Positions 28,480 through 30,981 of a DNA stretch of 39,600 nucleotides are shown one piece after another (positions within the stretch are counted from its first letter, which is position 1; every line of letters starts with the position of its first letter). Origin of the DNA: Candidatus Desulfobia pelagia (lineage in GTDB: Bacteria > Desulfobacterota > Desulfobulbia > Desulfobulbales > SURF-16). Under the pieces are notes generated by a model. That model was not told where the DNA came from. It was given only the letters and a program-made list of their open reading frames with translations, and searched no databases. Made by a program: the position numbers and the translations under genes. The stretch lies in assembly GCA_014382295.1 (NCBI GenBank), contig JACNJZ010000084.1, forward strand, positions 1 through 39,600, in the 5' to 3' direction.

Positions 28480-29058
28480 CTATAACTGCTTCATGCCGTT
28501 ATCACAGATGTATTTTTTTGCTTTACGTTTTAATTTAGGGTTGTTTTGAATTTCGGTGATGAGGTGGGGGTAGCCTGCGCGAAACCATACAATATTGTCT
28601 GCGCTGTAGCCCCATTCAGTTATGGCTTTAAATGATGCATTGTAGCTTCTATGGCATTTTGGTCCTTGACAGAATAAAACAATTTTCGCATTGTTTTTAT
28701 CGAGACCTGCATCACTGATCGCAGCGGCAAGTGTCTCTTCTGTCATATCATTGCCCTGCTTTCCTGTCTTGTTGAATGGAAGCAGGATAGCATTCCGAAC
28801 AGTTCCCGTTGTGAAGAAACTTTCAGGCCGTGTATCTATCCATAATACCTTCTCATCTGAATTAAGCTGATTGATGGCCTCCTGGGCATCCCAGATCGGA
28901 GCACCCCATGGAAGTTTTTTGAGTGATTTGGAAAGATGCTCACCAGGAATCTGACCTTTTTCTACTTCATTGGCATAAACGCTTCCAGCCATACACGTCA
29001 AAGTAAAGAGTAATGTAAAAAGGAAATAGCCTGACAATTTGATGTTTCGTGGTCTCAT
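28480..29058 (-). CDS. Periplasmic single-domain rhodanese-like protein with C-x4-C loop
   Basis: Sulfur- or thiol-transfer protein outside the cytoplasm. The 192-residue precursor has a signal peptide (about 1-29, ending VYAN). One rhodanese domain (about 52-170) follows, with WIDTRPESFF and the active loop LFCQGPKCHRSYNAS (Cys130 and Cys135). The loop has a second Cys five residues after the usual catalytic one, the same spacing as Cys192/Sec197 in the divergent selenoprotein gene. The C-terminal tail is basic, with one more Cys. A GGGAG ribosome-binding site precedes the ATG. Substrate and redox partner are unknown. Confidence 0.85.
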   Translation of the reverse strand: MRPRNIKLSGYFLFTLLFTLTCMAGSVYANEVEKGQIPGEHLSKSLKKLPWGAPIWDAQEAINQLNSDEKVLWIDTRPESFFTTGTVRNAILLPFNKTGKQGNDMTEETLAAAISDAGLDKNNAKIVLFCQGPKCHRSYNASFKAITEWGYSADNIVWFRAGYPHLITEIQNNPKLKRKAKKYICDNGMKQL

Positions 29059-29553
29059 TTTATTTCTCCCTTAAGATAGATTTACTTCGTTTTTGTTTCG
29101 GTATTATTACCCAACACTTTTAGTATATGGAAAAAAAAGAGAAAGTCAAAAAAAGTTTTAAATATTTTCAGGTTAACTTATTGTAGTAACGGTTAAAAAA
29201 AACGTCTAGGGTGAAAAATACATAAATATGTCAAGATAATTGTTTTCCGAAAAATATTGTGATAAAATTATTTTTTGGGTAAATGCACGGTATAGTATTT
29301 ATCGTACTGCACATATTGGCCCTTAAAAAATTGATGGTCTCGATAAAAGTCATCACCCCTACAAAAACTGGTATCCAGGTTGGTGCGAACTTATTGAAAT
29401 TACTTGATTCCAGTCTTCGCGGGTATGACTCTAAGACACAATATTCGTCTTTCGCGAGGTCATCGAAATTAAGGAATACAACATTATTATTAAGTAACTT
29501 GTGAAAGTATTTCACGCTTACAGTACGTTTTAATTTTTCAAGGAGGATTGTAG
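29059..29553. other. Divergent intergenic region between the two rhodanese genes
   Basis: This 495-base AT-rich gap should hold both promoters. The short ORFs in it lack ribosome-binding sites. Around 29340-29470 there is degenerate palindromic sequence (CTGGTATCCAG, then TGATTCCAGTCTTCGCGGGTATGAC) resembling the common repeat type built on GGATTCC..GCGGGAATGAC. This suggests an old repeat insertion. No structured RNA or -35/-10 pair could be fixed by eye. Confidence 0.45.
29501..29515. promoter_or_regulatory. GTGAAAGTATTTCAC palindrome upstream of the selenoprotein gene
   Basis: A six-base perfect inverted repeat (GTGAAA/TTTCAC) with a three-base centre lies 39 bases before the start codon. 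It is the size of a dimeric regulator's operator. It is only a candidate; no cognate regulator is in the window. Confidence 0.3.
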
Positions 29554-30888
29554 ATGAAGAAGAAAATGTTGAAGAAGTTCATTCCATTCATGGTTTGCGC
29601 TTCATTTTTTGTCAGTGGTTGTCAACAGACTGGTCAGAATGCAGCTGCAGATCAGGCCATGAAAGTTGAGTCGGTAGTTAAGGCCCAGGGAAATGTTTAC
29701 AAAGGCAAAGTAGCTGGCGTATCCAATAAGGCCAAAACTATTTCTATTACAGTTGGTAAAGGTGATGCTGCCAAGACCATGATGGTCAAATTCAATGACC
29801 AGACAAAAGGTATGGAGCATGCTGCTAAAGGTGAAGCGGCAATAATCAAATATGAGGTTATCGGCACAGATAAGATTGCTGTCGAAGTAAAACCTAAGCT
29901 TGCTAAGCTTCCAGAAGGTACGACAGAGGTTGATACTGAGTATTTAGCAAACCTTGTATCCCAGGGAACTGAAAAAGGGAATTATTTCCTGGTTGACTCC
30001 AGGCCTGGTAGTCGCTTTCATGAAGGCACAATTCCAACATCTGTCTCTATTCCGGTTCCTAAAATTAAAGGTGAAGGCGCACTTGCCGTTTTGCCTAAAG
30101 ACAAAAATATCCAACTTGTATTTTACTGCGGAGGCCCTACCTGAGGCATGAGTCCAGAGTCCGCAGGTCTTGCGGTCAAAGCCGGCTACACAAACGTTAA
30201 AGTATACCTGAAAGGTGTTCCTGCCTGGAAAAAATCAGGTCGTAACGTTGTTGCAAGTACAAAGCATGTAAAAGATGGTAATATTGTTCTGGTGGATTTA
30301 CGTCCTACTTCTGAATACAAACAGGGCCATATCCCAAGAGCATACAGTGTGCCTCTTGAAGATATGGAAGACCTTGAAGATGATCTTCCTGCAAGCATGG
30401 CTGCCCCGGTTGTTCTCTATGGAACTGGTGATGACAAAGCGTATAAATTCGTAAAGAAGCTTGGTTATAAAACCACCTCTATTTACCAGGGTGGAGTTGA
30501 CGCCTGGGTTGCTTCTGGGAATCAGCTTTCTACAGATGCAGCTCCGGAAGAAATCACCTGGAAACGTATTCTTGGCAAAGGTGAGGTTACAGTTGCCGCA
30601 TTTAACAAGGTCGCAGATGGTGAAGCGCCTGGTGGAGTCATCCTGGATGTAAGAACAAAAGATGAGGCTGCAGAAGGTATGTTTGACAACGCCATTCATG
30701 TGCCCCTTGATGAACTCCAGGCTAAAATGAACGAGATTCCAAAAGACAAAGAGGTTATGATTCATTGTTCTACTGGCGCACGCGCAGAAATGGCCTATAA
30801 AGAGCTGAAGGCTGCCGGTTTTAACGCCTATTACCTTGTCGCTGATGTAGAGTGTGATGAAGATGGATGTGAAACAGCAGAAGAGTAG
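29554..30888 (+). CDS. Triple-rhodanese selenoprotein lipoprotein (in-frame TGA read as Sec197)
   Basis: One 444-residue reading frame is interrupted only by TGA at 30142-30144. The N-terminus is a lipoprotein signal (lipobox VSGC, Cys23). A small beta-rich region (about 40-118) follows, then three rhodanese-like domains. Domain 1 (about 122-232) has the loop FYCGGPT-Sec-GMSPESA, with Cys192 and Sec197. Domain 2 (about 235-328) has lost its Cys (LYGTGDDKAYKF). Domain 3 (about 336-432) has an intact CSTGAR loop (Cys405). The Cys paralogue at 28480-29058 has Cys at the position of Sec197. A SECIS-like hairpin follows the TGA. An AAGGAGG ribosome-binding site precedes the ATG and a strong terminator ends the unit. 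Its likely role is sulfur, polysulfide or selenium handling in the periplasm or outer membrane. Ordinary annotation would split it at 30144 and start a false gene at 30148. Confidence 0.9.
30142..30184 (+). promoter_or_regulatory. Bacterial SECIS element with its UGA codon
   Basis: After the TGA (30142-30144), CCGCA (30161-30165) pairs perfectly with TGCGG (30171-30175) around the apical loop GGTCT. An unpaired T at 30160 lies just 5' of the stem. The first loop base is 22 nucleotides past the TGA, within the usual bacterial range. From memory, the E. coli fdhF SECIS also has a GGUCU loop on a GC-rich stem with a bulged U that SelB contacts. The outer GGC (30145-30147) and GCC (30181-30183) could form a lower stem. 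Confidence 0.85.
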
Positions 30889-30917: not shown

Positions 30918-30951
30918 AAAAAAAGGCGGTAGATGTTTACCGCCTTTTTTT
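30918..30951 (+). terminator. Intrinsic terminator of the selenoprotein gene
   Basis: AAAAAAAGGCGGTA (30918-30931) pairs with TACCGCCTTTTTTT (30938-30951) around a six-base loop. The stem is GC-rich and ends in a seven-base T-run, 29 bases past the stop codon at 30888. It is symmetric enough to act in both directions. Confidence 0.92.
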
Positions 30952-30981
30952 GTTTCTTTCCGAAGGGAAGGATTATTACAT

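Follow-up and report, generated by a model that had tools for sequence, protein, structure and literature searches.

An exported triple-rhodanese gene interrupted by one in-frame TGA

The window analysed here is a 39,600-nucleotide stretch of contig JACNJZ010000084.1 from Candidatus Desulfobia pelagia. Positions 29554-30888 of its forward strand translate as a single frame of 444 codons, in which the sole in-frame TGA is codon 197 (30142-30144). Standard ORF calling splits the gene into ORFs of 196 amino acids (29554-30144) and 246 amino acids (30148-30888), while the read-through protein contains three Pfam rhodanese stretches (PF00581, E = 3.5e-43), the first of which has the TGA inside it. 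The features of the locus are:

28480-29058 (-): divergent single-domain exported rhodanese with a C-x4-C loop (FCQGPKC), from the ORF list and Pfam; a neighbour that our interpretation does not require
29540-29546 (+): strong Shine-Dalgarno sequence AAGGAGG ahead of the ATG at 29554, read directly
29554-30888 (+): predicted selenoprotein coding sequence, exported triple-rhodanese protein of 444 amino acids with Sec197, stop codon TAG (translation, Pfam, homologues)
29554-29622 (+): signal peptide with lipobox VSGC and predicted lipidated Cys23, read directly
29695-29895 (+): N-terminal beta domain, residues 48-114, five strands (AlphaFold2 model; weak, sub-threshold Pfam BipA_C match)
29920-30252 (+): rhodanese domain 1 (Rhd1), loop C192-G-G-P-T-U197-G-M-S (Pfam, alignment, AlphaFold2 model)
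30127-30129 (+): Cys192 codon TGC, canonical rhodanese catalytic position, invariant in a 44-row alignment
30142-30144 (+): TGA codon 197, predicted to be read as selenocysteine (82 TGA and 28 Cys in 110 homologues)
30161-30175 (+): bSECIS hairpin, arms CCGCA/TGCGG, apical loop GGTCT (homologue comparison, tree, covariation)
30259-30531 (+): rhodanese domain 2 (Rhd2), without a catalytic Cys (LYGTGDD), probably inactive (Pfam, alignment)
30580-30843 (+): rhodanese domain 3 (Rhd3), canonical loop C405-S-T-G-A-R-A, Cys codon 30766-30768 (C405, G408 and R410 invariant)
30853-30870 (+): C-terminal Cys pair C434-x4-C439, C439 kept in at least 90% of the 44-row alignment
30920-30952 (+): terminator-like hairpin GGCGGTA...TACCGCC followed by a T run, after the stop codon, read directly

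A consensus scan did not report the terminator-like hairpin at 30920-30952. The selenoprotein gene appears to be a single-gene transcript. In genome G227, a related rhodanese frame with stops, likewise divergent, adjoins the triple-rhodanese gene, as 28480-29058 does in the window.

A confident AlphaFold2 model (pLDDT 88.9) comprises the N-terminal beta domain (48-114) and three rhodanese folds; searched as a whole against the PDB with Foldseek, it matched generic rhodaneses only, with low whole-chain TM-scores. Five positions do not vary in the 44-row alignment, namely C192, C405, G408, R410 and, if Cys and Sec are taken together, residue 197; the Rhd2 loop has no Cys, and the C-terminal pair C434/C439 is largely conserved. 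The Rhd3 loop fits the sulfurtransferase pattern CxxGxR around the invariant C405, and the domain is predicted to be active. One homologue outside this alignment (L128) retains the TGA with Gly in place of C192 (YGQGPTUGN); hence, the Cys-Sec pair is not strictly required.

A sequence-only reading of this DNA had described a frame open except for a TGA at codon 197, divided in two by normal annotation, with rhodanese sequence running across the TGA and a Cys at the matching place in the C-x4-C loop of the divergent neighbour. Each of these points is borne out by the translation, the ORF calls, the Pfam domains and the FCQGPKC loop given above. Its description of a three-domain lipoprotein holds for the domains and for the lipobox of the window's own protein, but a lipobox-like motif occurs in only 34 of 92 homologues, so that "exported" is a better general label than "lipoprotein".

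Codon 197 is TGA or a Cys codon across homologues

The window's genome (3.0 Mb in 224 contigs, 97% complete) encodes the selenocysteine machinery that the sequence-only reading had proposed to look for: selA (625 bits), selB (367 bits), selD (366 bits, and carrying an in-frame TGA of its own) and selC, the tRNA-Sec gene (73 bits; gathering score 47). We searched 258 genomes of the order, of which 240 had some rhodanese match; scanning contigs with a single protein as the query found nothing, and an alignment as the query gave matches. A long homologue is present in a large share of the 258 genomes, and in most cases its frame contains exactly one TGA. Among 110 aligned loci of the order, 82 have TGA at codon 197 and 28 have Cys, with no other residue and no TAA or TAG, in agreement with the earlier expectation that homologues would have Cys or TGA at this site. 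The loops read at other loci of the phylum likewise carry either TGA or Cys at this position. Sequence conservation continues past the TGA: identity to the nearest relative (L021) is 60% before it and 66% after it.

The two states interchange repeatedly. A quick tree of the 110 proteins, built with the trait residue masked and including some long branches, gives 13 Sec/Cys changes, 12 of them forced by supported branches. In one Geobacterales genome (G452), loci L243 and L244 represent the two states, one copy having Cys (FWCGGPTCPFS) and the other TGA (FWCGGPT-TGA-PFS), and they form a natural pair for comparison.

A downstream hairpin is specific to TGA-containing genes

A GC-rich hairpin with a GGTCT loop had been noted 17 bases past the TGA, and we located it there, at 30161-30175 (CCGCA-GGTCT-TGCGG). 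Folding of the region, also suggested in the sequence-only reading, was uninformative: by itself, the hairpin has an unremarkable folding energy (z = +1.2), and Rfam gave no match above gathering scores. Since stability alone says little, support for the hairpin is comparative. A GGTC loop on a stem with at least four of five pairs is found in 79 of the 82 TGA genes versus none of the 28 Cys genes; in the three remaining TGA genes, the stem is intact and the loop is GGTTC or AGTTT. If GGT or AGT loops are allowed, the hairpin occurs in all 82 TGA genes versus one of the 28 Cys genes. Of 12 independent pairs on the quick tree, 11-12 show the hairpin changing along with the Sec/Cys state (sign test, p ~0.0005). 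The stem also covaries: in a selection of 43 distinct sequences, some of them from relatives beyond the order, 94.9% of cells are paired and there are 20 two-sided changes versus 3.1 in shuffles, a signal that is lost when the pairing partner is slid. The window itself shows a two-sided change, from CCGCC/GGCGG to CCGCA/TGCGG.

These comparisons bear directly on whether the TGA is a real stop, yielding a truncated protein of 196 residues and a second protein restarted at the ATG at 30148. That ATG lies two codons past the TGA, has GGAGG 12 bases upstream and is kept in 81 of the 82 Desulfobulbales TGA genes. However, 28 homologues continue through the site with Cys, and many of those retain the Met; several TGA homologues of other lineages lack a Met after the TGA (U-VLSP, U-PFS, U-ALTP), which disfavours a restart. 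A split would, moreover, sever a rhodanese domain within its active loop, and the hairpin is kept in TGA genes only. We consider termination at codon 197 very improbable. A pseudogene, frameshift or assembly error might be suspected in a window taken from a 224-contig assembly, but is refuted by the recurrence of TGA at the same codon in 82 loci, with no TAA or TAG and with identity as high downstream as upstream, and we give it practically no weight. Equally negligible is a genome-wide reassignment of TGA to another amino acid: the frame would be open under such a code, but several other long ORFs of the window use TGA as their stop, which argues that it is not generally reassigned, the aligned residue is only ever Cys, and SelA, SelB, SelD and tRNA-Sec are all present.

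Given the selenocysteine machinery, the exclusivity of TGA and Cys at the site, the hairpin that tracks the Sec/Cys state and the covariation of its stem, we regard the predicted reading of TGA197 as selenocysteine as all but certain on sequence evidence. The earlier suggestion of a probable selenoprotein is thus supported.

Relationship to known rhodaneses and selenoproteins

Rhodanese-related proteins had been placed among the reported bacterial selenoproteins, which is correct: reviews list rhodanese selenoprotein forms 1-5, of which form 1 (UxxS, PF00581, WP_010941598.1) is attributed to Zhang and Gladyshev 2005 (PMC13188914, PMC9312934). Form 1 is a predicted bacterial selenoprotein in which PF00581 carries U-x-x-S, and the window protein has U197-G-M-S200; the two are likely the same family, as compared by motif description only. 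In four Geobacter-like genomes, the TGA-containing rhodaneses are one three-domain UxxS protein and short C-A-U proteins. Form 3 (NF041203, CxU) was rejected, with 46 bits against the 115 required and a CxxxxU motif in the window protein.

Among exported proteins, RS06465 of Desulfurivibrio dismutans, described in 2025, has a signal peptide, a predicted lipoprotein character, three PF00581 domains and a place in a Psr operon, and has been proposed to hand sulfur to polysulfide reductase (PMC12142623). Compared by description only, it resembles the window protein as an exported three-rhodanese Desulfobulbales lipoprotein, but no selenocysteine is reported in it. TsoB (NF045694), described by NCBIfam as a rhodanese/DsbD fusion-like selenoprotein, has a rhodanese domain related to Rhd1 (E = 3e-17), and both have a paired x4 redox loop; however, the loop is UxxxxU in TsoB and CxxxxU in the window protein, which also lacks a DsbD part. 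The window protein is not TsoB: it scores 62 bits against a cut-off of 805, with the match confined to the rhodanese parts. ExtH, from Geobacter extHIJKL, is an exported rhodanese lipoprotein of similar size, and a homologue of the window family adjoins extH in one genome, but the window protein has no match to the ExtH model (NF040901; cut-off 200 bits) at E values up to 0.1. Finally, Rhd3 has a profile match (6.9e-6) to Sud, the Wolinella polysulfide-sulfur transferase (PDB 1qxn). Sud is an exported rhodanese-type carrier that serves polysulfide reductase; it has a single domain and is not known to contain selenocysteine or a Cys-x4-Cys loop.

Selenocysteine-containing rhodaneses and exported three-rhodanese lipoproteins are thus each known, and we found no description of their combination. 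The protein had been called little described. This holds insofar as we found no paper on selenocysteine in a three-domain exported rhodanese in the literature searched, a set outside which most subscription papers fall; it does not hold for the components, since both UxxS rhodanese selenoproteins (PMC13188914, PMC9312934) and a three-rhodanese lipoprotein (PMC12142623) have been described.

Other candidate rhodanese selenoproteins were seen during the searches. Two are in the window's own genome: an exported protein of 276 amino acids with two in-frame TGA codons in one rhodanese loop, TY-U-MGYR-U-VFAY, that is, UxxxxU, although with only 51 bits to TsoB (L312:1572-2399, minus strand, contig C32), and a protein that combines rhodanese and ferritin-like parts and has TGA in place of the canonical catalytic Cys, VY-U-AIGGRSR (L311:1977-2804, minus strand, contig C47). 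Five loci (L289, L290, L295, L302 and L303) encode short exported single-domain Geobacterales proteins with a Cys-x4-TGA-x-x-S loop.

Genomic context

Homologues in Geobacterales adjoin genes for a molybdopterin oxidoreductase, a 4Fe-4S protein and NrfD. In Desulfobulbales, one Sec-containing homologue (L147) is preceded on its own strand by a molybdopterin oxidoreductase gene and a 4Fe-4S gene. The gene stands alone in most Desulfobulbales, and when the neighbourhoods of 80 loci from this order were clustered, no partner was conserved across the flanks examined. In the genome taken as Geotalea daltonii, a homologue is directly upstream of extH (404 bits to NF040901) and a porin gene. An N-terminal CXXCH motif occurs at 14 of 33 listed loci that have the loop; some genes are entered more than once among the 33, and the window gene three times. 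All 14 are from Geobacterales, and the motif is in none of 101 Desulfobulbales proteins. Separately, a relative adjoining a molybdopterin oxidoreductase gene (L257) apparently has two Cys-x4-TGA loops.

Two studies of sulfur disproportionation are relevant. The Psr operon of Desulfurivibrio dismutans, which includes the secreted three-rhodanese lipoprotein, is upregulated in sulfur disproportionation (PMC12142623). In the proteome of Desulfolithobacter dissulfuricans GF1, the rhodanese protein GF1_13980 was detected in thiosulfate disproportionation only (PMC9751629). The only dsrC in the genome that we take as GF1 (G071), at 2.720 Mb, is GF1_24490; scaling of the locus tags therefore places GF1_13980 near 1.553 Mb. 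The Sec homologue of this genome occupies 1.5597-1.5610 Mb, and ~85 kb separate it from the next rhodanese gene, at 1.646 Mb. GF1_13980 is probably the Sec homologue, an assignment made by position only.

Proposed function

The best explanation of these observations, and in our view a probable one, is an exported selenoprotein with a sulfur-relay mechanism. We lean slightly towards a function as a periplasmic sulfane-sulfur carrier or reductase, for which we infer the substrate, redox cycle and partners. The hairpin that begins 17 bases past UGA197 would direct SelB and Sec-tRNA to decode this codon. Rhd3, through C405, may take up sulfane sulfur from polysulfide or thiosulfate, with Rhd2 acting as a structural spacer. 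The Cys192-Sec197 pair of Rhd1 (Cys-x4-Sec) could accept or reduce the persulfide, a selenenylsulfide forming as sulfide leaves; periplasmic electron carriers would then restore the reduced pair, or the sulfur would be passed to a Psr/Phs-type molybdoenzyme. The haem motif (CXXCH) of the Geobacterales proteins and the rhodanese/DsbD description of TsoB suggest a redox loop rather than purely a transferase loop. Weighing on the other side are the isolation of the gene in most Desulfobulbales and the loss of the first Cys in L128.

The selenoprotein might instead serve mainly in selenite/tellurite or redox-stress handling, in the manner of ExtHIJKL, and not in sulfur energy metabolism. The homologue directly upstream of extH and a porin gene in the genome taken as Geotalea daltonii points this way, as do the impaired selenite and tellurite reduction of G. 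sulfurreducens on loss of extI (PMC5877670) and the fact that most known selenoproteins are redox enzymes. We consider such a role unlikely, if far from negligible, given that the ExtH model NF040901 finds no match in the window protein, that Psr-like neighbours are found elsewhere, and that the probable orthologue in a sulfur disproportionator was detected on thiosulfate only.

Returning to the sulfur-relay mechanism, a broader proposal, which we offer tentatively and would not expect to hold in full, is that the family is a selenium-dependent periplasmic sulfane-sulfur reductase or carrier, spread through Desulfobulbales and other Desulfobacterota, and is a missing link to Psr/Phs in disproportionation. 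If true, it would connect extracellular sulfur, polysulfide or thiosulfate with Psr/Phs enzymes, and would have escaped notice because of the split that annotation makes at UGA. Dozens of sulfur-cycling genomes carry the protein as two broken ORFs; hence, work on sulfur disproportionation by proteomics or genomics may overlook the protein or register only its halves. A link to Psr-type operons would place selenium in anaerobic sulfur energy metabolism, the first steps of which are still unclear, and the at least 12 Sec/Cys switches within one order constitute a natural test of the benefit of selenium to a rhodanese.
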